Shown here piece after piece: positions 5,073-57,980 of a DNA stretch of 59,676 bases. The DNA comes from Fodinibius halophilus (lineage in GTDB: Bacteria > Bacteroidota > Rhodothermia > Balneolales > Balneolaceae), in the NCBI RefSeq assembly GCF_011059105.1, contig NZ_JAALLS010000026.1:1-59676 (forward strand), in the 5' to 3' direction. The position numbers were made by a program, and so were the translations under genes. The notes beneath the pieces were generated by a model. It saw only the letters and a list, made by a program, of their open reading frames with translations, was not told the DNA's origin and did not search any database. Each line of letters opens with the position of its first letter. The first letter of the stretch is position 1.

Positions 5073-6544
5073 TATGCGTTAAGGTACCGTTCTATGCGTT
5101 CTTGTGATTCGGGTTTTGTATATAAGCTTACTGTTGTGAGGAGACTTACATTTACTATAAGTCCGTAAATTCCTTCGTGTAGGGGAAAGGGACGGAGTTC
5201 GGGATAGAGCAGAAAAAGTATGGTGGTGAGAACCCCACCCAAAAGCCCAGCTATTGCCCCGTATCCTGTTGCTCGTTTCCAGTAAAACATGCCAAGCACC
5301 AGTGGAAAAATTTGCGCGACTCCACCGTAGGATCCCAGCAGCAGGTTAACAATGGGCACATCCGAAATAACGGCAAAATAGTAAGCTACCAGACTGATGA
5401 TGATAACAAGGAGTCGGATAAGATTACGTTCCTTTCTATCAGTAAGCCACTTGGCTGGTAAAATGTGAGAAAGGCCATCACGGACGCCGATAGAAGCTGC
5501 TGAATGGAGTATGGCATCACCGGAAGACATAGAGGCAGCTAGTGTACCAGCACAAACAAGGCCAATAATGATTATGGGCAGGTCGAGTTGGGTTAGGATA
5601 TATGGTAGAATACTGTCTGCGGGGGTTACACCGGGATAGGCAAGGATGGCCGTAAAGCCAATGATTAAAATTGGAACCAGGAAAAACTGAAATGTAGGAT
5701 AAAGTACCGCTGTGAGTTTCATCGTTCGGTCGTTATTGGCGGCAAAGGCGCGCATAAAAAGGTGAGGCCACACCGAAAACCCTATTGCCGATACAACTAC
5801 GGCTGAGCTGTAACTCCACCAGTTCCAGGGTTCACCGGAGGCATTGAGACCGGGAGCCTGTAGCATAGCCGACATGTCACTTTGGGCAATTTGGGTAAAC
5901 ATCTCGCCTACTCCTCCGAATAGTTTATAAGGCAAATAGAGTCCTAGGAACCAAGCGATTACCATCATAAAGATACCTTGGAAGGTATTGGTCCAGCCTA
6001 CGCCCATAACACCGCTAAAGTAGACGTACATTAAAACCACGAGATAAGCGATGCCTGCTCCCAGCCATTGTGGAATGGCGCCTTCGCTGATAGTGGTGAT
6101 AACATAACCGGCGCCTTTCATTTGTAGGGTTAAATAGGGTATAAAGACAATAATACTTATGACAGCCAATAGCGCAGATAGTGAGGTACTGTTAAAACGG
6201 TCTTGCAAAATTTCGGCTTGCGTTACAAAACCATACTTTTCACCTAAGCGTCGCACTTTTGGTCCAAAGAAATAGATAGGAATCATACCGGTGGCTCCAT
6301 AGGAGATAATGTAAAAGGCCGCAGCACCCCGGGAGTAAGCCCAACCGGGTCCACCGAGGAAAGCAAAGGAAGAGAAGATGGAAGCCCCCAACACAAAATA
6401 AAGCAGCAGTACATTCATGCTGCGGTCACCGGCCACAAATCCGCTTACGCTATCAGAAACTTTTAATCCCGGAATAATACCCATCGCCAGAGTTACGGCA
6501 AGGTAAATTCCACAGATAAGTAAAATAATAACCCAACTTTCCAT
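5072..6544 (-). CDS. Sodium:solute symporter (SSS family)
   Basis: 490 residues with about 13 hydrophobic helices, in the cytoplasmic membrane. SSS-family features include FAFLGGPGWAYSRG near residue 65 and a Ser/Gly-rich segment GTLAASMSSGDAILHSAASIG near 340, typical of the helices that line the Na+ site. Family members take up monocarboxylates, amino acids, sugars or pantothenate with Na+. The small DUF3311-like partner directly upstream favours a monocarboxylate permease (MctP/ActP-like), but the substrate is inferred. The stop/start junction with the upstream small gene also overlaps by one base. Confidence 0.88.
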   Translation of the reverse strand: MESWVIILLICGIYLAVTLAMGIIPGLKVSDSVSGFVAGDRSMNVLLLYFVLGASIFSSFAFLGGPGWAYSRGAAAFYIISYGATGMIPIYFFGPKVRRLGEKYGFVTQAEILQDRFNSTSLSALLAVISIIVFIPYLTLQMKGAGYVITTISEGAIPQWLGAGIAYLVVLMYVYFSGVMGVGWTNTFQGIFMMVIAWFLGLYLPYKLFGGVGEMFTQIAQSDMSAMLQAPGLNASGEPWNWWSYSSAVVVSAIGFSVWPHLFMRAFAANNDRTMKLTAVLYPTFQFFLVPILIIGFTAILAYPGVTPADSILPYILTQLDLPIIIIGLVCAGTLAASMSSGDAILHSAASIGVRDGLSHILPAKWLTDRKERNLIRLLVIIISLVAYYFAVISDVPIVNLLLGSYGGVAQIFPLVLGMFYWKRATGYGAIAGLLGGVLTTILFLLYPELRPFPLHEGIYGLIVNVSLLTTVSLYTKPESQERIERYLNA

Positions 6545-38498: not shown

Positions 38499-38942
38499 AT
38501 GAAATCAGTAAAACGTTATTCAGATCTATCTGTACTTGAGTCTATGAGAAGAGAGATGGATCATTTTTTTGATGATCTTGCTCCTTTTTCATGGAAGAGA
38601 GGTAATGGAGGAAAAGAGATTTGGGCACCCAATTCCGATATGAGTGAAACCGAAAACGAATATCTAGTTAAAATTGATCTTCCTGGTCTTTCAAAAGATG
38701 ATATTGAAGTCAACTATAAAGATCATCGCTTAACAATAGCGGGCGAACGTAAATTGGAAAAAGAGGAAGATGAGAAAAATATGATTCGTAAAGAGCGATA
38801 TTTCGGCACCTTTGTACGTGCGTATACGCTCCCGGAAGCAATTAAAGAAGATCGTATTAAAGCTACATTTAAAGATGGCGTTCTCACCATAGAAGTTCCC
38901 AAAACAGAAGTTAAAAAGCCTACAAAAATTCAGATTGACTAA
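38499..38942 (+). CDS. Hsp20/alpha-crystallin small heat shock protein
   Basis: 147 residues; ATP-independent chaperone that holds unfolding proteins. N-terminal arm MKSVKRYSDLSVLESMRREMDHFF typed in two parts: MKSVKRYSDLSVLESM then RREMDHFFDDL. The alpha-crystallin domain is about 42-135 (WAPNSDMSETENEYLVKIDL, IKATFKDGVLTIEVPK). The C-terminal I-x-I motif is IQI at 144-146. The length is usual. It heads the island's central run on the + strand. Stress control through the dyad upstream is inferred. Confidence 0.93.
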   Translation: MKSVKRYSDLSVLESMRREMDHFFDDLAPFSWKRGNGGKEIWAPNSDMSETENEYLVKIDLPGLSKDDIEVNYKDHRLTIAGERKLEKEEDEKNMIRKERYFGTFVRAYTLPEAIKEDRIKATFKDGVLTIEVPKTEVKKPTKIQID

Positions 38943-38963
38943 ACAATAAATCCCCACAAGGAT

Positions 38964-38993
38964 GTAGAGCCAGCCGTGAAAGGTTGGTTCTAC
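38964..38993 (+). terminator. Hairpin after hsp20
   Basis: GTAGAGCCAGCC pairs with GGTTGGTTCTAC (two G-U pairs), 6-base loop, no T-run. It may weaken read-through or stabilise the hsp20 mRNA 3' end rather than end transcription. Confidence 0.5.
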
Positions 38994-39019
38994 CTCTCTG
39001 TAATTAAAAAAACAGAACT

Positions 39020-39211
39020 ATGGATTTGAAAGAAAATGTAGGAACGCTGGATAAAATTATTCGAATACCATTAGGAATAATTATGATCGTCGCTGGCATT
39101 TATTTAAGCAGCTTTTGGGGGCTTTTAGGGATTATACCTCTAATTTCAGGAGTAAGCGGATTTTGCCCCCTCTATTCTGTATTTGATATCTCGACTGCCA
39201 AAGTAAGATAG
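39020..39211 (+). CDS. DUF2892 membrane protein
   Basis: 63 residues: MDLKENVGTLDKIIRIPLGI, then two membrane helices (about 17-33 and 36-55) with FCPLYSVFDIST at the end. This is the YgaP transmembrane/DUF2892 type, including the Cys-Pro in the loop. Often found beside rhodanese or sulfur genes, but none is here. It stands 40 bp before the SDR gene on the same strand. Confidence 0.85.
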   Translation: MDLKENVGTLDKIIRIPLGIIMIVAGIYLSSFWGLLGIIPLISGVSGFCPLYSVFDISTAKVR

Positions 39212-39251
39212 GATCTATACGCAATGAATGTAGTAATTAAAATTTAACATA

Positions 39252-40004
39252 ATGAATGATAAAAAGGCACTTGTTACCGGAGCCGCAATGGGTATTGGAA
39301 AAGCAACTGCAGAACTGTTAGCCCAAAAAGGTGCCCAGGTTCTGATAGCGGATATTGAAGAAGACGCATTACAAAAAACGGCCAAAGAAATCGAGGATAT
39401 GGGCGGTAAGGTTATTACTGCAATAGCTGATATCTCAAAAGAGAAAGATGTACGTACTATGGTCCGGAAAGCAGTAGATGAGTTCGGCCAGCTCGATATT
39501 GCGTGCAATAATGCCGGCATTGAAGGGGAGATGGCTTTAACGGCTAACTACAGCCTGGATGAGTGGGATCGCGTACAGAATATTAACTTGCGAGGCCAAT
39601 TTCTGTGTATGAAAGAAGAGATTGCTGCTATGTTGGAGAGTGGGGGTGGATCAATTGTCAATGTTTCGTCTATTTTGGGCAAGGTGGGGTATCAACAAGC
39701 TCCGGCCTATACCGCTGCTAAACATGGTTTGCTTGGATTAACAAAAACAGCAGCAATAGAATATGCCCAAGAGGGAATCCGCATAAATGCGGTATGCCCG
39801 GCCTTTATTGATACTCCGATGCTTGAAAGAGCGGGTATTACAACGGATGAGGAGGTAAAAGAACAAACTATTGGGTTACACCCGGTTGGCCGGCTTGGAC
39901 ATGCTAAAGAAGTGGCTGAAGCCATTGTATGGTTAGCGTCAGAGCAGGCCTCTTTTGTAGAAGGTCATGCCCTAATGGTGGATGGCGGATATACTGCCAA
40001 ATAA
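39252..40004 (+). CDS. SDR-family oxidoreductase
   Basis: 250 residues, classical SDR. TGAAMGIGKATAELLA (cofactor loop), ADIEEDALQ (acidic, suggests NAD), NNAGIEGEM, catalytic Ser in VNVSSILGKV, Tyr-x3-Lys in YTAAKHGLLG. The end ASFVEGHALMVDGGYTAK is typical of glucose-1-dehydrogenase-like members. The substrate is unknown. It is 21 bp upstream of ppsA, so they are probably co-transcribed. Confidence 0.88.
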   Translation: MNDKKALVTGAAMGIGKATAELLAQKGAQVLIADIEEDALQKTAKEIEDMGGKVITAIADISKEKDVRTMVRKAVDEFGQLDIACNNAGIEGEMALTANYSLDEWDRVQNINLRGQFLCMKEEIAAMLESGGGSIVNVSSILGKVGYQQAPAYTAAKHGLLGLTKTAAIEYAQEGIRINAVCPAFIDTPMLERAGITTDEEVKEQTIGLHPVGRLGHAKEVAEAIVWLASEQASFVEGHALMVDGGYTAK

Positions 40005-40025
40005 CTGGTACTTAATTATTCTCTT

Positions 40026-42434
40026 ATGAAAAAGCCCTATAGTACATTTATTAAGTGGTTTGGCGATATTGATATGCAAGATATGGCTGATGTTGGCGGT
40101 AAAAATGCCTCATTGGGAGAGATGTCTCAATATCTGCAATCCACAGAAGTAAATATCCCTGGTGGTTTTGCCTCAACGGCTGAAGCATATCGTACCTTTG
40201 TAAGTGAGAACGATTTAGACCAAACCATTCGTGAGGAGTTAAAACAGTACAAAAATGGGACACAAGATCTGCACGAAACGGGCTTACATATCCGGGACGC
40301 TTTTAAAAAGGGGATGATTCCAATTCCTATTGCCAAAGAAATTAGTACCGCATATGACAGATTATGTACCCAAAGCGGCGTTAAAAATGCATCGGTAGCA
40401 GTGCGAAGTAGCGCTACAGCAGAAGATCTGCCTACGGCGAGTTTTGCCGGTCTGCAGGAAACATTTTTAAATGTTCAGGGCAAGGAACAGCTGATGGATA
40501 TGTGTAAAAAGTGTTTTGCCTCGTTATTTACTGATCGTGCTATTTCATATCGAGATGAGAAAGGATTTGATCATTTGGAGGTGGCTCTTTCGATAGGTGT
40601 TCAACGAATGATAAGAGCAGATAAGGCAGGGTCGGGCGTTCTGTTTACATTGGATACTGAAACAGGCTTTCCGGATACTATTGTTATTAATGCAGGTTGG
40701 GGACTGGGAGAAAATATAGTGCAGGGCACCATAAATCCAGACCAATATATTGTGTTTAAACCATTATTGGGTCAAGCAGGTTGTACCCCCATCCTGGAAA
40801 AGATACTGGGCAGCAAGAACCAAAAAATGGTGTTCGTTGCCAAGAATGGCAATCGCGTTAAAAATGTGCAAACAACGACCGAAGAACAGCATTCTTTTGT
40901 GTTGTCTGATGAAGAGATTATTGCCCTTTCAGAAGGTGCCGTTAGAATTGAAGATCACTATAAAAAGCCGATGGACATTGAGTGGGTGAAAGAGGATGAG
41001 ACCGATAACCTGTTTATTGTACAAGCAAGACCAGAAACGGTGCACTCTGCAGCTCAAAAAGGGTTATTTAAATCCTATAAACTCAAAGAAAAAAATGCTA
41101 ATCCCATCCTCAAGGGGGTTAGCATCGGGAGTGCTATCGTTCACGGGAAAGTGCGTCATGTAGAACATATTAGTGATCTCGAGACGTTAGAGGAAGACGA
41201 TATTATGGTTGCCCAAATGACCGAACCCGACTGGGTGCCTGCTATGAAAAATATAAGGGGGATTATTACGGATTCCGGGGGACGTACATGCCACGCAGCA
41301 ATAATTAGTCGTGAAATGGGTATACCAGCTATAGTTGGCACTGAAGTGGCTACGAATGTTTTAGATGAAGGAAAAGAGATTACCCTTTCAACTGCTCGCG
41401 GACAGGAAGGAGCTGTTTATGATCATTATTTAGATTATGAAGTAGATGAAGTTGATCTAAAGGAACTACCGGATATCGATACGGATATCATGATCAATCT
41501 GGCTACTCCGGATACTGCGTTTAATTGGTGGCAGTTACCCATTCAAGGGATAGGACTTGCTCGCATGGAGTTTATCATCAGCAACCATATTAAAGTCCAT
41601 CCGATGGCGCTCCTTAATTTTGACAAAGTAATTAAAGAGTCTGATCGGAAAAAAATCCGGAAGATCACTAAAGACTATAAAAATAAAGGGGATTTCTTTG
41701 TTAATAAGTTATCGGATGGGATTGCCAAAATTGCAGCTTCTCAATATCCCAAGCCGGTTATTGTACGCACCAGTGATTTTAAAACAAATGAATATGCCGG
41801 ACTAATAGGGGGCAAGGACTTAGAACCTCAAGAGGACAATCCAATGTTGGGCTGGCGGGGTGCTTCACGCTATTATTCCGATGAATACAAAGATGCATTT
41901 GCTTTGGAATGTAAAGCCATAAAGCAGGTGAGAGAAGAGATTGGGCTCGAAAATGTTATCGTAATGATTCCCTTCTGCCGGCGAACCAGCGAAGCCAGAC
42001 GGGTACTTGAAGAGATGCAGAAAAACGGGCTTGAACGAGGTAAATACGGCCTGAAAGTGTATATGATGTGCGAAATTCCCTCTAATATTATTTTAGCCGA
42101 ACAGTTTGCCCGCTACTTTGATGGTTTTTCCATTGGCTCTAACGATTTGACCCAGCTTATACTGGGGGTGGATCGCGATTCAACAAAGCTTAATTACCTT
42201 TTTGATGAAAATGATGAGGCGGTCAAAATATCTATTCAGCAACTCATTCAAAAAGCCCATAAGATGAATTCTACCGTAGGGTTTTGCGGTCAGGCCCCCA
42301 GTGATAATCCTGATTACGCAGAATTTTTAGTCCGCAGTGGTATCGATTCCATATCGGTAAATCCGGATAGCGTAGTAGAAGTCATTAAACATATATATCA
42401 AGCGGAAGTAAATAATTATAGTAAACCTGTTTAG
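40026..42434 (+). CDS. ppsA: Phosphoenolpyruvate synthase
   Basis: 802 residues; pyruvate + ATP to PEP + AMP + Pi. N-terminal ATP-grasp half: VGGKNASLGEMSQYL, VAVRSSATAEDLPTASFAGLQ typed in part as AVRSSATAEDL, and ATP-site VQARPETV. The swivelling phosphohistidine domain has GGRTCHAAIISREMG with His423. The PEP-binding barrel ends with SIGSNDLTQLILGVDRDS and GFCGQAPSDNP. Length and order are standard. atpD starts 15 bp after its stop. PEP synthesis costs two ATP equivalents, so its pairing with an ion-pumping ATPase operon is notable. Confidence 0.95.
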   Translation: MKKPYSTFIKWFGDIDMQDMADVGGKNASLGEMSQYLQSTEVNIPGGFASTAEAYRTFVSENDLDQTIREELKQYKNGTQDLHETGLHIRDAFKKGMIPIPIAKEISTAYDRLCTQSGVKNASVAVRSSATAEDLPTASFAGLQETFLNVQGKEQLMDMCKKCFASLFTDRAISYRDEKGFDHLEVALSIGVQRMIRADKAGSGVLFTLDTETGFPDTIVINAGWGLGENIVQGTINPDQYIVFKPLLGQAGCTPILEKILGSKNQKMVFVAKNGNRVKNVQTTTEEQHSFVLSDEEIIALSEGAVRIEDHYKKPMDIEWVKEDETDNLFIVQARPETVHSAAQKGLFKSYKLKEKNANPILKGVSIGSAIVHGKVRHVEHISDLETLEEDDIMVAQMTEPDWVPAMKNIRGIITDSGGRTCHAAIISREMGIPAIVGTEVATNVLDEGKEITLSTARGQEGAVYDHYLDYEVDEVDLKELPDIDTDIMINLATPDTAFNWWQLPIQGIGLARMEFIISNHIKVHPMALLNFDKVIKESDRKKIRKITKDYKNKGDFFVNKLSDGIAKIAASQYPKPVIVRTSDFKTNEYAGLIGGKDLEPQEDNPMLGWRGASRYYSDEYKDAFALECKAIKQVREEIGLENVIVMIPFCRRTSEARRVLEEMQKNGLERGKYGLKVYMMCEIPSNIILAEQFARYFDGFSIGSNDLTQLILGVDRDSTKLNYLFDENDEAVKISIQQLIQKAHKMNSTVGFCGQAPSDNPDYAEFLVRSGIDSISVNPDSVVEVIKHIYQAEVNNYSKPV

Positions 42435-44283
<1,849 letters not shown>

Positions 44284-44287
<4 letters not shown>

Positions 44288-44577
44288 GTACAGAAAACGA
44301 AAATAACAAAAAAGCATTTAAAGAAAGCGTCAAAAAAAAGTCGCAGCGGAAGCTTAATGTTCGGAAACAAGATGAAAGAGGCTTGCTTTATGGGTTCGGG
44401 ATGTTTGGACTGGTCGGATGGTCGGTTGCTATACCAACGTTAGTGCTGTTGGCTTTGGGGATATGGATTGACAGTACTTTTAAAGGACCCTATTCGTGGA
44501 CGTTAATGCTGTTGGTTTTAGGAATCATGATAGGTTGTATCAACGCCTGGTATTGGGTAAAAAAAGAAAGTGAATAG
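44284..44577 (+). CDS. atpQ: AtpQ (AtpZ/AtpI-like) subunit of N-ATPase
   Basis: 97 residues from TTG 44284, overlapping the epsilon stop (TTGA). Basic N-terminus, then two membrane helices: GWSVAIPTLVLLALGIWID and WTLMLLVLGIMIGCINAWYW. The position between epsilon and AtpR is the N-ATPase hallmark. It may aid c-ring assembly or Mg2+/Ca2+ entry, as proposed for AtpZ/AtpI relatives. Confidence 0.85.
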
Positions 44578-44587
44578 GAAAAATGAT

Positions 44588-44872
44588 ATGAACTGGATCT
44601 TTATTTTCATAGCAATTGTAAGCGGGGCTATTGTCAGCGTCTTCTATTTTGGAGGACTATGGTTAACACTGCGTAAAATTGCCGAATATAAGTTTTCTTA
44701 CCTGCTGATACTGGTAAGTTTTGTTATAAGAATTACATTACTACTGCTGGTTTTTTATCTCCTGTTGCAATACCACTGGGCATATTTAGGATTAGCACTC
44801 ATGTCATTTCTGATTGTTCGTCAGGTACTGTTATTGAAACTGGGAAACCCCAAAGGTGCACTTTATAATTAA
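44588..44872 (+). CDS. atpR: AtpR subunit of N-ATPase
   Basis: 94 residues from ATG 44588 with an AGGA site; a GTG 18 bases upstream is an alternative. Three membrane helices, with FGGLWLTLRKIAEYKFSYLL between the first two and charged Arg residues in helices (LVSFVIRITLLLLVF). AtpR is found only in N-ATPase operons. Its role is unsettled; it is proposed to interact with the c ring through its intramembrane arginine. Confidence 0.85.
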   Translation: MNWIFIFIAIVSGAIVSVFYFGGLWLTLRKIAEYKFSYLLILVSFVIRITLLLLVFYLLLQYHWAYLGLALMSFLIVRQVLLLKLGNPKGALYN

Positions 44873-44885
44873 TTGGATACCAGCT

Positions 44886-45578
44886 ATGGAGCTCAATATT
44901 GATGATATCATCTTTTGGCAATATGAGTTTTTTAAAGTTAATGCCACCTTGATTAATTCATGGATCGTCATGCTATTGCTTATATCTGTCTCATGGCTGA
45001 TTACCAGAAAACTCACGGCCGGTATAGATATAAAACGCGGACAGGCGTTTATTGAATCTTTTGTGGTGTATGTGGTTGACCAGATTCGGGAAGAAACGCA
45101 TGAAGAGCCTGATAAATACTTACCGTTTATTGGGGCATTATTTTTGTTTATCGCATTCTCCAATATTATTGGCATTATACCGGGTTTTAACGCCCCTACA
45201 GCATCATTGTCTACGGCCACAGCATTGGCCATTTGTGTGTTTATTGCTGTGCCCATTTTTGGGATCTCCAACCGCGGTTTTTCCACGTATATAAAGCATT
45301 ATATACAGCCGAGCCCACTTATGTTGCCATTTAATATTATTGGCGAACTTTCTCGTACGCTTGCTCTTGCTATCCGTTTGTTCGGTAATATCATGAGTGG
45401 CAGCCTTATTGTAGCAATAATTTTGAGCTTAAGTCCGCTCTTTTTTCCAGCAATTATGCAGGCTTTTGGCCTGTTGATTGGCATTATACAGGCATATGTC
45501 TTTGCTATTCTGGCATTGGTTTATATCGCATCAGCTACAAGAGTTCGGGAGGTAAAACAAAATAACGAGGTAAAATAA
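44886..45578 (+). CDS. atpB: N-ATPase subunit a
   Basis: 230 residues from ATG 44886; the frame extends upstream to 44856, but that part overlaps atpR. Five or six membrane helices. The conserved half-channel helix FNIIGELSRTLALAIRLFGN contains the essential Arg (SRTLALAIR). FSNIIGIIPGF and LVYIASATR are also typical. It passes ions to the c ring. Confidence 0.92.
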   Translation: MELNIDDIIFWQYEFFKVNATLINSWIVMLLLISVSWLITRKLTAGIDIKRGQAFIESFVVYVVDQIREETHEEPDKYLPFIGALFLFIAFSNIIGIIPGFNAPTASLSTATALAICVFIAVPIFGISNRGFSTYIKHYIQPSPLMLPFNIIGELSRTLALAIRLFGNIMSGSLIVAIILSLSPLFFPAIMQAFGLLIGIIQAYVFAILALVYIASATRVREVKQNNEVK

Positions 45579-45605
45579 CCGAAATAATAATATAAATATA
45601 TCGAT

Positions 45606-45878
45606 ATGGACAGTATTAGCATTATTGGGATGATATCAATTATCACAGCGGGGATTACTATTGCTGTGGGATCCATTGCCCCGGCATTGGGAGAAGGGAA
45701 GGCACTGTCTCAAGCATTGACGGCAATAGCTCAGCAGCCAGATGAGACCCCCAGTATTACCCGGACGCTATTTGTAGGATTGGCTATGATAGAATCAACA
45801 GCAATCTACTGTTTTGTTGTGGCCTTAATTTTAATCTTTGCTAATCCCTTTTGGGATTATGTGATTAGTGGAGGATAA
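45606..45878 (+). CDS. atpE: N-ATPase subunit c with Na+ ligands
   Basis: 90 residues, two helices. Helix 1 has Glu30 (PALGEGKALS) where the Ilyobacter Na+ c subunit has Gln32. Helix 2 has Met61, Glu63, Ser64, Thr65 and Tyr68 (AMIESTAIY). The spacing 30 to 63 and 63 to 68 equals that of the Na+ enzyme, so every Na+ ligand is present. A second carboxylate in helix 1 is typical of N-ATPases. Na+ use is therefore well supported, though not measured. Confidence 0.93.
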   Translation: MDSISIIGMISIITAGITIAVGSIAPALGEGKALSQALTAIAQQPDETPSITRTLFVGLAMIESTAIYCFVVALILIFANPFWDYVISGG

Positions 45879-45881
45879 GAC

Positions 45882-46679
45882 GTGGTTATCGATTGGTTCA
45901 CAGTGGTTGCTCAAATAGTCAATTTTTTGATTTTGCTGGCCCTCTTAAAGCGGTTTCTGTTTGGGCCTATTCAGGATATTATGACCAAGAGAGAAGAGCA
46001 GGTTGCCTCTCGGTTGAATGAGGCACGTAAAAAATTAGCGGAAGCAGAAGCAAAAAAGAAGAATTATCAGCATAAACTTGATGAGCTGGAGAGATCGAAA
46101 AAAGAGATGCTCCAAGACGCCAAAGAGCAGGCAGCCCAAACCCAAAAACAGCTAGAGCACGAGGCGCGCGAAGAGATTGAAAAGATGCAGCATAACTGGA
46201 AAGAAGCTCTTGCATCAGAGAAGGAAGCATTTTTTAAAGAGTTACACCGACAGGCTACGTTTAATATTATTAATATTCTTAAAAAACTTGTTCAAGAGCT
46301 GTCTAATAGCACGCTTGAAAAGGAAACGGTTAATGTTTTTATAGAAAAGCTCCAATCGTTGGGTAAAGAAGAACAACAGAAGATCACAACAGCAGTTTCA
46401 GGTGGTGAAGCCCAAACGGTTTCAGTAATCAGTTCTTTTGAACTAAATAACGAAATGCAGCAGCAAATAACCGGTAGCATCAAGAGACTGTTTTTAGATG
46501 ATTTTAAATGCATATTTGAAGTTTCATCCAGTATAGGATTTGGCATTGAGTTGAGTACTGATGGGTGGAAAATAGGATGGGATGCCAATATTTACCTGGA
46601 AGATCTTAAAAGAAATATTGAACAGCTTTTTACTTCTGATGTTGAAACAATACAACAGCAAACCACACAAAATGAGTAG
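45882..46679 (+). CDS. atpF: N-ATPase subunit b with delta-like C-terminus
   Basis: 265 residues from GTG 45882 with a GAGG site; usual b subunits are near 160. An N-terminal membrane helix (IVNFLILLALLKRFLF) is followed by a long charged coiled coil (about 35-125). Residues 170-265 (IFEVSSSIGFGIELSTDGWK, then IGWDANIYLEDL) resemble the delta C-terminal domain (F-x-V-D-x-x-L-I-G-G). No separate delta gene exists, so this tail probably does its job on top of F1. Confidence 0.85.
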   Translation: MVIDWFTVVAQIVNFLILLALLKRFLFGPIQDIMTKREEQVASRLNEARKKLAEAEAKKKNYQHKLDELERSKKEMLQDAKEQAAQTQKQLEHEAREEIEKMQHNWKEALASEKEAFFKELHRQATFNIINILKKLVQELSNSTLEKETVNVFIEKLQSLGKEEQQKITTAVSGGEAQTVSVISSFELNNEMQQQITGSIKRLFLDDFKCIFEVSSSIGFGIELSTDGWKIGWDANIYLEDLKRNIEQLFTSDVETIQQQTTQNE

Positions 46680-46687
46680 TATTCATA

Positions 46688-48202
46688 ATGATGAACCCGG
46701 ATTCTACATTATCGGTTATTGATCAAGTATTTGAGTCAATAACTAAATCTCAAGAAAGTCGCCTTGATCTTATAATCCGGGAGAAAGGAAATATACGTTC
46801 TGTGGGCGAAGGCATTGCCACAGTCGGTGGATTGCCGAATGTAGTAACCGATGAACTGCTAAAGTTTGAAGACGGATCACTTGGTTTGGTCTATAATCTT
46901 GATGAGCATGAGATTGGGGTTATACTACTTGATGAAGAACAACATATTGATGCTGGGGATGAAGCATTCAGAACCGAACGTGTTTTGGGAGTACCGGTTG
47001 GAGAGGCGCTTTTAGGGCGGGTAGTAGATGCGTTGGGACGCCCCATAGATGGAAAGGCGGCTTTTCGGGCTGCTACGTACTTGGCTGTAGAGCGAGAGTC
47101 TCCGCCCATTATGAATCGGCAATCAGTGGATACCCCACTGCAAACCGGCATTCTTACCATCGATGCCCTGCTGCCCATAGGTCGGGGGCAGCGCGAGCTG
47201 ATTTTGGGAGATCGCCAAACAGGAAAGACTGCTATTGCAATAGATAGTATTATCAACCAGAGGGATACTGACGTTATTTCAATTTACTGTGCCATTGGAA
47301 AGCAGCGTGCTGAAGTAAACCGGGTAGTTTCCGACTTGCAAAAAAATGATGCCTTTGAAAATACTATTGTGTTATCGGCAAGCAGTAGCGTTCCGGTGGG
47401 CTTACAGTATATTGCACCCTATGCGGCAACCACTATGGGAGAATATTTTATGGAGCAGGGACGAGATGCATTGATTATTTATGACGATTTAACTTGGCAT
47501 GCTCGTGCTTACCGTGAACTGGCGCTATTGCTTCGTCGTCCGCCTGGACGAGAAGCTTTTCCCGGGGATATTTTCCACATTCATGCCCGTCTGCTGGAAC
47601 GATCAACACACCTTAAAGAGTCTGGTGGCAGTATGACGGCTCTGCCCATTATTGAAACCCAGGGACAGGATATAGCAGCATTTATCCCTACCAATCTTAT
47701 TTCAATAACAGACGGACAGATATTTCTATCGCCCGATTTATTCCAGAAAGATGTGTTGCCTGCCATAGATATTGGTAAGTCAGTATCAAGAGTAGGGGGT
47801 GCTGCGCAACTGCCCGCATATCGTATAGCGTCAGAAGAATTGCGGTTGGCTTATTCACAATTCGAGGAGCTGGAAGCCTTTTCTCGGTTTAGCTCCCGAC
47901 TGGATGAAGATACTCTACATCGTATAGAGCGGGGAAGACGTATCCGGGAGGTGTTAAGCCAAGATCAATTTGATACTATCGATGTGGTTCAACAGATAGC
48001 TCTGCTAATCGCTGTAACCAATGGTTTATTTGATGAGTTGGACCTATCCCAAATTAAGCCTGCCTGTAGGATGATGCGTAATAATATTGAATCTGAATTA
48101 GGCAATATGAGCACTAAAATTAAAGAAGGAGAAAAACTGGAAAAGAATGAAGAGGAAAGGGTAGTAAATATTTTACGAAAATTAGTGGATAAGAAGTTCT
48201 AA
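46688..48202 (+). CDS. atpA: N-ATPase subunit alpha
   Basis: 504 residues, ATP-binding but non-catalytic. Walker A GDRQTGKTAIAIDSI (174-188), DALIIYDDLTWHARAYREL, arginine finger region near SVSRVGGAAQ. ATG 46688 or 46691 could start it. Length is full. Confidence 0.94.
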   Translation: MMNPDSTLSVIDQVFESITKSQESRLDLIIREKGNIRSVGEGIATVGGLPNVVTDELLKFEDGSLGLVYNLDEHEIGVILLDEEQHIDAGDEAFRTERVLGVPVGEALLGRVVDALGRPIDGKAAFRAATYLAVERESPPIMNRQSVDTPLQTGILTIDALLPIGRGQRELILGDRQTGKTAIAIDSIINQRDTDVISIYCAIGKQRAEVNRVVSDLQKNDAFENTIVLSASSSVPVGLQYIAPYAATTMGEYFMEQGRDALIIYDDLTWHARAYRELALLLRRPPGREAFPGDIFHIHARLLERSTHLKESGGSMTALPIIETQGQDIAAFIPTNLISITDGQIFLSPDLFQKDVLPAIDIGKSVSRVGGAAQLPAYRIASEELRLAYSQFEELEAFSRFSSRLDEDTLHRIERGRRIREVLSQDQFDTIDVVQQIALLIAVTNGLFDELDLSQIKPACRMMRNNIESELGNMSTKIKEGEKLEKNEEERVVNILRKLVDKKF

Positions 48203-48219
48203 ACCAATAAATCCCGACT

Positions 48220-49107
48220 ATGCAAACTGTTGAACATTATAAACGGAAAATTAGCAATGCAGAGGATTTACACGCAATTGTTCATACCATGAAAGTGTTG
48301 TCTTCGGTAAGTATCCATCAGTTTGAAGAGGCAGCAGAATCACTGGGAGAGTATTATCGAACGGTGAAGATGGGACTCCAAATTGTACTGGGGACCTCAC
48401 AGGAGCAGCACTTCCCATATTTATATGCTCATAAAGTGGCGCAGGAATGTATCATCATTTTAGGTTCAAGCCAAGGGCTGTGTGGGACGTTTGATGAGCA
48501 GGCTAAAGATTTTTTAGAAGCCCAGGTTTTAGAACAATCATTTTCAGCTCCCCGGTTGCTGGTAATGGGAGGGCGCTTGGCTTCTAAGTTATCAGTTAAG
48601 TATTCCGTGGAAGATGTAATTGAGTTACCCGCATCGGTATCAGGGCTTAACAACCGGGCGGTACAGTTGTTAAAAGCTATTGAGCATTTACGAGAGACAA
48701 AACATATCTCACGAGTTGTAATTATTCATCATAAACCCGTAAAGAAAGGCTTATATAAACCTCGTATTCAATTTTTATTACCGCTTGATCGGCACTGGTT
48801 AGATCGTCTGGCAGCCAAAAAATGGCCAACCAATAATTTGCCAAAGTTTACAATAGATGCAGAACAGCTTTTCACTCATTTTATTCGTCAATATCTGCTT
48901 GTTTCATTATATCGGGCCATGGCTGAGTCGCTGGCTGCAGAACACACAAGTCGATTAAATGCGATGTCAATAGCTGAAGATAAAATTGAAGAACGACTTT
49001 CCAAGCTACATAACAAGTATGCCCAGGAGAGGCAAAAGGGAATAACCGAAGAACTGCTCGATATATTATCGGGCTATCTTGCTGTTAAAGATAGAGAGGG
49101 AAAATAA
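48220..49107 (+). CDS. atpG: N-ATPase subunit gamma
   Basis: 295 residues. N-terminal helix YKRKISNAEDLHAIVHTMKV and C-terminal helix AAEHTSRLNAMSIAEDKIEE form the rotor shaft. The Rossmann-like middle has ECIIILGSSQGLCGTFDEQA. It is less similar to housekeeping gamma subunits at its N-terminus (KVLSSVSIHQFEEA), as usual for N-ATPases. Last gene of the operon; no strong terminator follows. Confidence 0.9.
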   Translation: MQTVEHYKRKISNAEDLHAIVHTMKVLSSVSIHQFEEAAESLGEYYRTVKMGLQIVLGTSQEQHFPYLYAHKVAQECIIILGSSQGLCGTFDEQAKDFLEAQVLEQSFSAPRLLVMGGRLASKLSVKYSVEDVIELPASVSGLNNRAVQLLKAIEHLRETKHISRVVIIHHKPVKKGLYKPRIQFLLPLDRHWLDRLAAKKWPTNNLPKFTIDAEQLFTHFIRQYLLVSLYRAMAESLAAEHTSRLNAMSIAEDKIEERLSKLHNKYAQERQKGITEELLDILSGYLAVKDREGK

Positions 49108-49246
49108 TGGGAGCATTCTTGTTGCATTAGAAAAATACATAGCTGCCTACTTTTTTGTAATTAAATGAGGTGATTGTTATATGCTGATTTAGATATCGCT
49201 CTCTCTTCGCTTTTTAAGAAAAATAGATCACCATAGTCAATTTATT

Positions 49247-49265
49247 TGTAGGAAAATGCCCTTCA
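49247..49265 (+). promoter_or_regulatory. Operator-like motif, site e
   Basis: TGTAGGAAAATGCCCTTCA, 139 bp before the 49404 coiled-coil gene. It matches the island consensus TGTRGGRNAWWNCCYTTCA. Confidence 0.5.
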
Positions 49266-49309
49266 ATTATAAAATGGATTAGCCCATGTTTTTTTGGCGT
49301 GGGATTCGT

Positions 49310-49323
49310 CACATTTAAATGTG
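49310..49323. repeat. Perfect 14-bp palindrome
   Basis: CACATTTAAATGTG lies 80 bp before the coiled-coil gene, between the operator and the start codon. It could be a second regulator site. Confidence 0.4.
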
Positions 49324-49403
49324 GTGAGTAGTTCAAAGAGCTCTATAGGATGACTCATTACCTTGCCAACTAACTATAATTTGATGCTAAAATATTGAAG
49401 ACT

Positions 49404-49712
49404 ATGAAAGTAACTGCCAAAGACCAAAGAGAAGAGTTTATTGACCGGTTTACCGAAAAATTAAAAGAGTGGAATGAGGAGCTAGAAAAACTGGAAAACA
49501 GGCTGGATGAAGAATATGAAGAGCTTAAAAGCGATTATAAAGGAAGAATTGTAGAACTTAAGCAGTATAGGAATGAGATGGAAACAAAGCTCGACAAACT
49601 TGAGGAGGTAGGTGAAGAGGCTTTTGAGTCTATCAAAGGTGATATAAATAAGCTATGGGAAGATTCAATAGATGTCTTGCAGTCTTTAAAAGAAAACCTC
49701 AAGAAGAGTTAA
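49404..49712 (+). CDS. Coiled-coil protein, paralogue 2
   Basis: 102 residues from ATG 49404 (a TTG 9 bases earlier extends it). Helical throughout and acidic/basic, with IDRFTEKLKEWNEELEKLE and KLDKLEEVGEEAFESIKGDI. It is the closest relative of the 35043 protein. The dodecin gene lies 84 bp downstream on the same strand. Function unknown. Confidence 0.7.
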   Translation: MKVTAKDQREEFIDRFTEKLKEWNEELEKLENRLDEEYEELKSDYKGRIVELKQYRNEMETKLDKLEEVGEEAFESIKGDINKLWEDSIDVLQSLKENLKKS

Positions 49713-49796
49713 TAGCCCGGCAGAAAACCAATAGTATCAAGGCTGATCGGAATTAAAATCATTTAACTATCTATAATAAATAAACGGGAGAACATT

Positions 49797-49997
49797 ATGT
49801 CATTAGCCAAAGTAATTGAAGTAATGGGAGAAGGCAGTACTATGGAAGAAGCAGTCGAAAATATAGTAAAAGAAGCTTCTAAAACGGTACATAATATTAA
49901 AAGCATATATATGGAAAATATTCAGGCCATTGTCGAAGATAACCGAGTAGACCACTACAGGATTGATGCAAAAGTAACTTTTTTATTGGAAGAGTAG
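49797..49997 (+). CDS. Dodecin (flavin-binding)
   Basis: 66 residues, the size and pattern of dodecin: AKVIEVMGEGSTMEEAVENI, then ASKTVHNIKSIYMENIQAIV, then YRIDAKVTFLLEE. It stores or shields flavins as a dodecamer. The Trp that stacks flavin in archaeal dodecin (near K-x-x-x-V in the third strand) is not present; Tyr residues are. Strong GGGAGAA ribosome site. Confidence 0.9.
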   Translation: MSLAKVIEVMGEGSTMEEAVENIVKEASKTVHNIKSIYMENIQAIVEDNRVDHYRIDAKVTFLLEE

Positions 49998-50035
49998 AGA
50001 ATAAAATAGCATCCTTTTTTTGATTCAAAAAATTA

Positions 50036-50078
50036 TACAGCCGGTAAATTTGAGCTTAGGCTTGATTTACCGGCTGTA
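50036..50078. terminator. Strong inverted repeat after dodecin
   Basis: A perfect 14-bp stem, TACAGCCGGTAAAT / ATTTACCGGCTGTA, with a 15-base loop. The T-run follows it only on the minus strand. On the + strand it is a hairpin that may still end or protect the dodecin message. Confidence 0.6.
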
Positions 50079-50188
50079 AACATATTGGTATAGGCACAGA
50101 CATATGCAGAGTCAGCAGTAAGTAGTTGATTACTGTATATTCGAGAGCTTAAGATAACTCGTGATTCAAGTTTGAAAAAATATCCAAA

Positions 50189-50974
50189 ATGAATATTAAA
50201 AACATTCTTGTTCCGACCGATTTTTCAAATTGTTCTGAAGCTGCCACTTCTTTTGCCATCGATTTTGCGATAGCGCAAAATGCCCGTCTCTATCTAATGC
50301 ATTCAATGAAAAGTTCGTACTCAATGACATCAGAAAGACTTTTGGAGAAGATGATGGAGGATGACCGCTTTAAGGAAGTTAAAGCCCAACCGGTAGCAGA
50401 AATCGGGGATCCCGGTTCAGCAATACTTAGAGAATCTAAAGAAGTTGAAGCCGATCTTCTGATAATGGGTAATAAAGGTAGTTCGGGGGGTAGAAATTTT
50501 TTGGGAAGTACAACTACTGAGGTTATCACTAAATCCGAAATTCCCGTCCTTACTATTCCGGAAGAGAGCTCATATTCTGGTTTTGACGATATTCTATTTA
50601 TGACTGATTTCAAGGAGGGAGATTTATCAGCTCTAAAAGAAATGTTGGATTGGGTAGAACTTTTTAGGGCCCATATACATGTCGTTCATATTTCTACTGA
50701 TGATAACTTTGAGGAAAAGATAAAATATCGTGGGTTCAAAGAGGCAGCAAATGAATATGCTGACTATGAAAAATTAACTTTTGAACGGGTTGTTAATCCT
50801 TCTTTTTATGACGGTTTTCTTGAACTTATGGAAAAAAGAAATCCTGATCTCATAACGGCAACGAGATATAAAAAAACTTTCTTCCAAAAGTTACTGCAAA
50901 AAAATCATACCCGTATGCTTGGTTACGAAGCTGATACTCCTTTTTTGTCGTTAAACGGGGAGAAATATTTATGA
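50189..50974 (+). CDS. Universal stress protein, tandem-type
   Basis: 261 residues. The first UspA domain (about 3-130) has ILVPTDFSNCSEAATSFAID and the ATP-loop GNKGSSGGRNFLGSTTTEVI (G-2x-G-9x-G-S/T). The second half (about 133-261) is a degenerate UspA repeat without a full loop (ILFMTDFKEGDLSALKEML). This size is common among USPs of DosR-like regulons. No operator of the consensus type is evident upstream. Confidence 0.9.
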   Translation: MNIKNILVPTDFSNCSEAATSFAIDFAIAQNARLYLMHSMKSSYSMTSERLLEKMMEDDRFKEVKAQPVAEIGDPGSAILRESKEVEADLLIMGNKGSSGGRNFLGSTTTEVITKSEIPVLTIPEESSYSGFDDILFMTDFKEGDLSALKEMLDWVELFRAHIHVVHISTDDNFEEKIKYRGFKEAANEYADYEKLTFERVVNPSFYDGFLELMEKRNPDLITATRYKKTFFQKLLQKNHTRMLGYEADTPFLSLNGEKYL

Positions 50975-51048
50975 CTGGGATGATCAAATGTTTGATTCTG
51001 AAACAGGGATACTTTTTAGTTAACAAACATATTTGATGTGCATGGTAT

Positions 51049-51282
51049 TTATTGGTCGAATAACAGATCAATTTGATTTATCACCTTTTCGACTGCCTGT
51101 TGTTTTGAATCAGCATTGCCAGAAATTTTCATTCCTTTACTGTTAATAGCCGTTACTTTAACTCCATTCCAATTTTTGCTGATGTTGTCAATTGAAAACC
51201 CCCGATACGTTTCGTTAGACAGTAACGTTGGACGTTTTCCAAGTACCGTATTTGTTTTAGGTTCATGATCTTGATTATTCAT
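51049..51282 (-). CDS. Small hypothetical protein
   Basis: 77 residues, not recognised. Mixed alpha/beta: YRGFSIDNISKNWNGVKVTA, then ADSKQQAVEKVINQIDLLFD. It starts 8 bp after the DksA-like gene, probably in one unit. Confidence 0.5.
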   Translation of the reverse strand: MNNQDHEPKTNTVLGKRPTLLSNETYRGFSIDNISKNWNGVKVTAINSKGMKISGNADSKQQAVEKVINQIDLLFDQ

Positions 51283-51290
51283 AGCGGTTG

Positions 51291-51695
51291 TTAGTTATTC
51301 TGAATAAGTCCTTCTTCTTTCGCTTCCATACTGTATCTGGTGTGAGGTACAGCTTCGAGACGCTCTAAAGGAATCTGTTTCCCAGTCGCCTGACAAATTC
51401 CGTACGTTTTATTTTCAATTCTTTCGAGTGCATCGTTTATGTGCATGATATATTCTCGCAGGCGCTCTATTTGCAAATAATTCATCTCCGATTCTTGTTC
51501 CTCGGATCCGACGTCACCCATATGATGAGCGCGTGAAGAGTAATCGGCATCGTCGGCCTCATCTAAATTGGATTGAATGTCGCGAATAGTATCCAATTCT
51601 TTCTGTGTTTCAGATCTCTTATCCAGTAACAACTCTTTAAAATATTGTAACTTTTTATCCGAGAGGGAGGTTTTTCTTTTTTGTGAATTTTTCAT
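51291..51695 (-). CDS. TraR/DksA-like protein without a full zinc finger
   Basis: 134 residues. N-terminal coiled coil, then an acidic tip region, then IERLREYIMHINDALERIEN and YGICQATGKQIPLERLEAVP. The usual C-x2-C...C-x2-C zinc site is reduced to one Cys (YGIC). Such proteins still bind polymerase in some bacteria. It may tune transcription in stress. The weakness in the finger lowers confidence in the exact role. Confidence 0.8.
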   Translation of the reverse strand: MKNSQKRKTSLSDKKLQYFKELLLDKRSETQKELDTIRDIQSNLDEADDADYSSRAHHMGDVGSEEQESEMNYLQIERLREYIMHINDALERIENKTYGICQATGKQIPLERLEAVPHTRYSMEAKEEGLIQNN

Positions 51696-51899
51696 GATAG
51701 GATAATATTTATGATTAAACCTTGATCTATATTATTTTTATTTGGTGATACAAAATCTATGGGACAGGCACTGAGATTGGTGTAATGGTTAAACTTACAC
51801 TAGCTGTAAGCCTGTTTTGTAACTTTTTCATTCTTTCTTGCGAGAATTATCCCAATAACTTTTTATAATATCTGTTTTCAGGAATCCCCAATTCATTAA

Positions 51900-52461
51900 T
51901 TACGGGGTTGGCTGTTTTACTTTAGATTGTTTGGTCACTGCTTGTTCCAGTCGCTTGATAATTTGTTCTACTTGGTCCCAGTCGGTGTACTCATGATCTT
52001 CAGAGGTGTCGGTACTGCCCCCGCTTTTATACGCTATTAATCCGCATAATAAATTTCTTAAAGAAATTGTATTTAGAGTAGCGTAATGCTCCTGCCACTT
52101 GTTCTATAAAAGTGGGATTCCACCCAGTCTTATCCAGAAATTCTCGGGTAATCTTCTTCAACTCTTCCAATGATTCCGGCTCGTCACTTGCAGCAGACAA
52201 GCTTACAGAAATGAATACCCCGGGCTTTTTATTGAGTTCTTTATGATTTTCATCCACATATTTTTCAACAGCCACTTGATATTTTTCTGCATGCAGGGAG
52301 TCTCCCACAGCAACAGCATCAAATTCTTTTGGTTGGGAAGGGTGCTCAAGGGCATTGGCAAGTGAAACCTCGTGATCTGCTTTTTTTGCCTTATCTCGCA
52401 AGAATTCACAAATCTTTTTCGTTTGACCTTCAGTAGTGGCGTAAACTATCAATAATTTCAT
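51900..52461 (-). pseudogene. HemG-like flavodoxin, frameshifted
   Basis: The intact frame from 52461 encodes 144 residues starting MKLLIVYATTEGQTKKICEF, a flavodoxin fold of the menaquinone-dependent protoporphyrinogen oxidase type. It stops after FFKKFIMRINSV. In the next frame, GLIAYKSGGSTDTSEDHEYT continues the known family tail to a stop at 51900-51902 (total about 187 residues). One extra base near 52040-52047 explains it. It may be a true pseudogene, a sequencing error, or a shortened protein. The frame carries a HemG-typical end, so the family call is firm. Confidence 0.8.
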
Positions 52462-52639
52462 AACGTCATTATTGGTTTGAAGTGATGAATAGAAATCTAA
52501 GGGAGTTATATTTTGTAAAGCAGAGGAAAAAGGAGGGGTTTTGACTAGGAAAATCTTCTACAATCTAATCTCTTTAGCGGCATAGGATTCACTAGTATAC
52601 ATGAGGTTTACCTTATTAGTGAATAGGCTGGGTAGTTGA

Positions 52640-53257
52640 TTATAGTGTTTTGGCCAGAGAGTCAACATAGGATTGGGAAAATTGAACACTCCATATTCCA
52701 CGCAGCTCACCCATTTCAAATCCTGTTGCCTGGTCATTGGGATACAGCTCTTGAATAGTTTTAAGGTCAGCTTTACTGATATCCTGCCCCGGCCTACCGT
52801 GACAGTTCAAACAAAGCTGACCGGGAATACGAATAGGGGCATGATAGTTGATTTTATCACCATGCGCTATTGTGACGGGTTCTAAAGATTCTTCTTTCTT
52901 AATTTGTACCAAATACTTCTGGATTGTTGCCACCTCTAATGAGTCAGCTTGGTTTTTAGGGTTTCGCGGTTGGTGAGAAGCCCGGCGTAGTTCAACATTA
53001 TAGTGAGCAGAGAGGGAGTCGGTAAGCGGCATAGCCCGAATACTGCAGAACTGCAGGGCATTTTTCACGCCGCCCTCAGCTATAGCTTGTTGTAAATTAC
53101 TGCTTAACGTACTAAAAGCGGCTTGTGTAATTTTTTGTCCTTCTTTTATTACTGTGGTAGTATCGAAAGCCGTTGCTTCATTTGTGCTTCTCTTATCTTC
53201 TGCCTGGTTACTACAAGCAATAATTGGGATAAGACAAACAATAATAAGAAATCGCAT
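52640..53257 (-). CDS. DUF3365 haem-binding lipoprotein
   Basis: 205 residues. The lipobox IIAC makes Cys15 the lipid site. The domain (AFSTLSSNLQQAIAEGGVKN, then LRRASHQPRNPKN) matches DUF3365/Tll0287-like proteins. A single CxxCH haem site is at 149-153 (LCLNCHG). It would sit on the periplasmic face as a redox or gas sensor. It stands alone on the minus strand. Confidence 0.85.
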   Translation of the reverse strand: MRFLIIVCLIPIIACSNQAEDKRSTNEATAFDTTTVIKEGQKITQAAFSTLSSNLQQAIAEGGVKNALQFCSIRAMPLTDSLSAHYNVELRRASHQPRNPKNQADSLEVATIQKYLVQIKKEESLEPVTIAHGDKINYHAPIRIPGQLCLNCHGRPGQDISKADLKTIQELYPNDQATGFEMGELRGIWSVQFSQSYVDSLAKTL

Positions 53258-57338: not shown

Positions 57339-57980
57339 TTATGGTTTTGCCGCTTGCGGACTTGAAAAATAATTATCTTGCAGCTGTAGTATTTTAACCA
57401 ACAGTTGATGATTTATCTCCAGGTCATACTTGTCTGATAAGTATCGATGAGCTTGTTTTTCATCGGCCTCCAGCATGTTACCATCTTCTAAGAAGTGTAG
57501 TATATCTTCCGATACGGCCCATTGATAGATCAACCATTTCCATTCGGGTAACTTCTTAGCAGTATAGTCGGCCTCAAAAATGGTTTCCGATTTTTCGTGC
57601 AATACGGCCGTTTTTAGCAGTGAGGGCTCAAATGGTTCAATATGTGTAACCGCTGTACGTAAGGTTTTACCGGTATCGTTGACATCATCGACCACCAGGA
57701 CTTTTTTACTTTTGATATTGGATTGAATCGGGTCAATAACTTCCGCTTTTTCCAGCTTTGCGGCCCCGCTTTCATAATGTTTGATTTGAATAGAAGAGAG
57801 CCTCTTTATATTTAAAAAGTCACAGAGTAAACGGGCCGGCAACATTCCACCACGAGCAATAGCAACGATATGATTAAAGTTATAAGAGCTCAGACTGATT
57901 TTCTTTGCCAGAGAATGGGTGGTTTGATAGACCTCTTGCAGCGAAACTATTCGGGCAGAAAAGTCTTTATCCATAATCAT
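57339..57980 (-). CDS. Phosphoribosyltransferase (PRTase fold)
   Basis: 213 residues. The PRPP loop is VLVVDDVNDTGKTL (94-107), with the Asp98-Asp99 pair. IVAIARGGMLPARLL near 38 binds pyrophosphate. The C-terminal 60 residues (HFLEDGNMLEADEKQAHRYL) are unusual for guanine/xanthine PRTases. A weak operator-like sequence lies at 58032-58050. Purine or pyrimidine salvage is likely; the exact base is unknown. Confidence 0.85.
   Translation of the reverse strand: MIMDKDFSARIVSLQEVYQTTHSLAKKISLSSYNFNHIVAIARGGMLPARLLCDFLNIKRLSSIQIKHYESGAAKLEKAEVIDPIQSNIKSKKVLVVDDVNDTGKTLRTAVTHIEPFEPSLLKTAVLHEKSETIFEADYTAKKLPEWKWLIYQWAVSEDILHFLEDGNMLEADEKQAHRYLSDKYDLEINHQLLVKILQLQDNYFSSPQAAKP

Follow-up and report, generated by a model that had tools for sequence, protein, structure and literature searches.

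A HemG-like flavodoxin gene of Fodinibius halophilus interrupted by a single surplus base

The closest described systems include HemG. In Escherichia coli HemG the insert comprising residues 124-149 has been proposed to form the active site, and the enzyme lacking this insert is reported to be inactive (ref 20 in PMC4114063, as quoted in that paper). In Leishmania HemG, residue Y137 was found to be essential (PMC4114063). Among the titles listed in literature searches, none deals with the HemG-like gene in Balneolaceae; such work may exist.

The window, i.e. the whole stretch of 59,676 nucleotides of Fodinibius halophilus DNA that was analyzed (assembly GCF_011059105.1, contig NZ_JAALLS010000026.1), harbours a HemG-like gene on its minus strand (Table 1). 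The frame runs from an ATG at 52461 to a stop at 52027 and encodes 140 residues of family sequence followed by 4 residues foreign to the family. The protein scores 108.6 bits against the Pfam model Flavodoxin_5, above the curated cut-off of 27, and its first 140 residues span profile positions 1-132 of 145. It also matches positions 1-141 of 177 of the NCBIfam model NF008316 (6.6e-27), that of HemG, menaquinone-dependent protoporphyrinogen IX dehydrogenase. The score of 94.5 bits against this model, below the equivalog cut-off of 142 bits, is that of the truncated form alone. The name hemG for the gene at 52461 is a putative one, given by similarity only.

An earlier note on this DNA had described a HemG-like flavodoxin gene broken by one base, with the shift at about 52040-52047. 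Both profile matches bear out the family assignment, and the break itself was confirmed by DNA alignment of the 3' parts, in which the window has one base more than all 8 intact homologues, none of the 8 relatives carrying the extra base. The shift falls at about codon 141, and the alignment places it at about 52037-52044 instead (Table 1).

Table 1 Features of the HemG-like flavodoxin gene in the window
Feature	Position	Strand	Basis
HemG-like flavodoxin gene, 5' part	52027..52461	-	ORF of 144 aa; PF12724 4.3e-31
One-base surplus, exact base ambiguous	52037..52044	-	DNA alignment with 8 intact homologues
Out-of-frame 3' part, 46 C-terminal family residues	51900..52040	-	alignments, model, by eye

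The insert and the C-terminal tail of HemG are not complete in one frame. The tail continues on the same strand but in the next frame, where it carries LIAYKSGGSTDTSEDHEYTDWDQVEQIIKRLEQAVTKQSKVKQPTP. It comprises the rest of the insert helix, the TDTS and EYTDW motifs and the final helix, up to the intact form's stop, which ends at 51900. Back to the in-frame stop that precedes this tail, no ATG, GTG or TTG was seen by eye. The tail shares 34 of its 46 residues with the closest homologue (L002); none of 2000 base-shuffled versions of it gave more than 10 matches (mean 2.7), which excludes a chance match. Over 34 codons of the tail, L002 and the window differ by 7 nonsynonymous changes and 8 synonymous ones (pN 0.086, pS 0.381); the corresponding values for the 140 codons of the head are pN 0.183 and pS 0.688. 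Approximately four nonsynonymous changes per synonymous one would be expected in the tail under neutrality, and the observed 7:8 departs from this ratio (binomial p 0.005). Since this count takes in changes on the L002 lineage as well and does not isolate the recent history of the window itself, it sets just a loose limit on how old the shift can be. The absence of excess amino acid change in the tail indicates that the shift is either recent or an error, as the earlier note had supposed. That note had also rightly placed the tail in the next frame, but the length it gave, 45 residues, should be 46, and its description of the tail as fully conserved was overstated, the tail being roughly as conserved as the remaining gene. 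Synonymous divergence from the copy of the closest relative (G010) is low at 51939-52040 (pS 0.38 versus 0.69 for the head; Fisher p 0.011, few sites), which may be due to local recombination, constraint or chance.

The gene was searched for in the own genome and 57 relatives (E up to 1e-5) and was found in 8 of these relatives: 5 among the 11 further members of the genus and 3 among the 46 more distant genomes. With the own genome included, 6 of 12 Fodinibius genomes harbour the gene; the HemG-like flavodoxin gene is an accessory gene, optional in the genus. A comparison with close relatives, which the earlier note had proposed, showed intact copies throughout, in all 5 carriers within the genus and all 3 from other genera of the family, each open to the expected end with 174-186 residues. 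A scan of GTDB yielded 107 stretches confirmed as encoding relatives, of which the best 80 were examined. At least four of these loci (L018, L019, L020 and L028) appear to match four of the eight relatives above (G007, G001, G011 and G022). Frames of 173-191 residues were found in 78 of the best 80 loci, one of them (L094) reaching the contig end, and none of the 80 has the shift of the window. The other two are broken otherwise: the homologue of L033, a metagenome-assembled genome (6001-6540), is terminated after 12 residues, and that of L035 (Flavobacterium soyangense, 6001-6525) departs from the family sequence past approximately residue 136, near the contig end. No second Flavodoxin_5 copy able to compensate was matched elsewhere in the F. 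halophilus genome.

To see what the truncation removes, the intact relative L002 was modelled with AlphaFold from 47 sequences (the 8 relatives and 39 chosen from the best 80 of 107 loci). This model, with a mean pLDDT of 91.8, replaced a poor single-sequence prediction (pLDDT 46.3). Residue 141 is located in a predicted helix of residues 133-145, and the last helix comprises residues 161-185; a shift at about codon 141 would thus cut the former and remove the latter. Among the lost residues, W161 is invariant in all 47 aligned intact sequences, and D155, E157, Y158 and T159 are each at least 90 % conserved. Y131, likewise invariant in the 47 sequences, is retained. Through its spacing from Y128 we provisionally equate this residue with the essential Y137 of Leishmania HemG.

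The best explanation, to which we assign a probability of about 70 %, is a real and recent loss of function by a single-base insertion rather than a read or assembly error. A previously intact HemG-like (Flavodoxin_5) gene would have gained the base either in the sequenced strain itself or recently in its ancestry. Translation would then end four residues past R140, inside the HemG-type insert, giving a product that lacks the rest of the insert, the C-terminal helix and the conserved segments TDTS and EYTDW. Such a product is most likely non-functional. The extra base, the retained tail, the intact homologues and the presence of a separate hemY-type oxidase gene (see below) all support loss by a single indel, and the extra base is probably real. 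Annotation of this locus should flag it as frameshifted.

The main rival, an artefact of sequencing or assembly that adds a base to a gene intact in the strain, appears possible but rather unlikely. Assembly errors create many spurious pseudogenes in bacteria (PMC11017572), and the F. halophilus assembly consists of 91 contigs. The tail shows no relaxed selection, and this absence of decay would be equally expected under an error. Short homopolymers are also found near the surplus: a stretch of four T (52025-52028) and one of five C (52018-52022), as read on the plus strand, lie 9-19 bases further downstream in the gene, and misplacement of the surplus base relative to these runs would affect just four residues. 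However, the alignment puts the surplus base upstream of both runs in the gene and outside any homopolymer, with no run of equal bases longer than two in 52037-52044. No second genome of the species is present among the 12 of the genus, and the best other copy shows 74 % DNA identity. A proxy was therefore sought in split frames: 1.32 Mb of the closest relative (G010) supplied the query proteins, the window and a further 400 kb of the own genome (4.19 Mb) served as target, and splits between frames were counted but in-frame stops were not. At 60 % identity or more, 143 of 1025 queries were matched (48,100 residues), and the HemG-like gene was the only one split between frames. As no other split occurred among these 143 proteins in the sampled sequence, a frameshift-prone assembly is unlikely and a real mutation is favoured. 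In the opposite direction 140 of 343 queries were matched, 3 of which are split in G010. A smaller comparison of the window with 120 kb of G010, with 136 queries unfiltered for overlapping ORFs, gave one split in 68 good matches, again the HemG-like gene, and 2 splits in 64 good matches in the other direction. One frameshift in approximately 144 kb of compared coding sequence fits mutation and error alike. Furthermore, the gene is apparently dispensable, which makes a real loss easy.

Programmed or frequent ribosomal +1 frameshifting, joining both parts into a full-length protein, is very improbable. The conserved tail would be compatible with such a product, and as the first frame has only 4 codons left between its family sequence and the stop, a slip there would alter no more than about 4 residues. 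A +1 slip within these four codons, giving a full-length HemG-like flavodoxin and perhaps serving as a strain-specific switch, is an equally doubtful proposition. The shift is absent from all 8 relatives and from the best 80 of 107 GTDB loci, 78 of which are open throughout, and programmed frameshifting is unlikely because no other examined copy has the shift. A conserved shift site, searched for as a mark of programmed frameshifting, was found in 0 of the 8 relatives and 0 of these 80 loci, and neither a prfB-like slippery codon nor an internal Shine-Dalgarno-like stretch was seen by eye. That the 144-residue protein is functional as it stands, for example as a reduced flavodoxin, is hardly credible, since the short form does keep profile positions 1-132 of 145 of Flavodoxin_5 and Y131 but lacks W161 and the four other highly conserved residues, the last helix and part of the insert helix, and deletion of 124-149 is reported to inactivate the E. 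coli enzyme.

A loss of the HemG-like gene would be compatible with the other haem synthesis genes of the genome. A second protoporphyrinogen oxidase gene, the presence of which the earlier note had wished to see checked, was found; it is full-length and of the hemY type (TIGR00562, 344.1 bits, ORF of 460 aa, C9:85703-87040). This hemY-type gene occurs in 32 of 33 genomes (the own genome included) and in 12 of 12 of the genus, the exception being G016, which belongs to another genus. The genome also harbours hemF, hemN and hemH (ferrochelatase), while searches for hemJ and ChdC gave no match in it. A coproporphyrin-type pathway, with the hemY-type gene acting as CgoX, was considered and rejected; the lack of a ChdC match together with the finding of hemF and hemN makes the protoporphyrin route likelier. 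Because the hemY-type oxidase, hemF, hemN and hemH are encoded, haem synthesis is expected to be unaffected by loss of the HemG-like gene, which looks dispensable, and is better attributed to the hemY-type gene found outside the window.

The region around the gene (38499-53257) resembles an island for stress or alternative energy supply. Inspection by eye suggested genes for a small heat-shock protein and a PPDK-like protein as well as an F-type ATPase operon, presumably N-ATPase-like. Pfam matches to dodecin, Usp, DksA/TraR and a Tll0287-type protein follow the ATPase operon, and in L003 a Tll0287-like frame was also seen by eye after the homologue. Clustering of neighbouring ORFs from the window and 80 loci (best 80 of 107; 81 loci in total) revealed no conserved operon partner: the largest neighbour cluster is present in at most 24 of 81 loci, while the gene's own cluster is present in 71. 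Among the window and L018-L065 (49 of the 81 loci), most large clusters belong to one Muricauda/Flagellimonas block. Elsewhere in the window, a gene that by eye resembles a phosphoribosyltransferase has an open frame (57339-57980), whereas its G010 counterpart is apparently split over two frames.

The best solved fold for the L002 model is that of FldH, a haem-bound flavodoxin of Fusobacterium nucleatum (PDB 8g64; Foldseek E 1.0e-07, TM 0.54/0.59, 23 % identity), which is also a weak profile match (9.3e-05). FldH is distant, and the likeness gives no evidence of a haem-related role for the gene in the window. HemG and Flavodoxin_5 proteins are closer: the window protein matches both models, and its intact relatives combine the flavodoxin core with the insert and a TDTS/EYTDW tail. 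Unlike HemG, the window protein ends inside the insert and scores under the equivalog cut-off, and a HemG-like role in haem synthesis is not required of it, as its genome also encodes a hemY-type oxidase. With bacterial pseudogenes made by a single frameshift the locus has in common one indel, a conserved remainder and intact orthologues in relatives, and no difference from them was seen. The disruption of this HemG-like flavodoxin gene is an ordinary, recent, single-base one, with error as its main rival.
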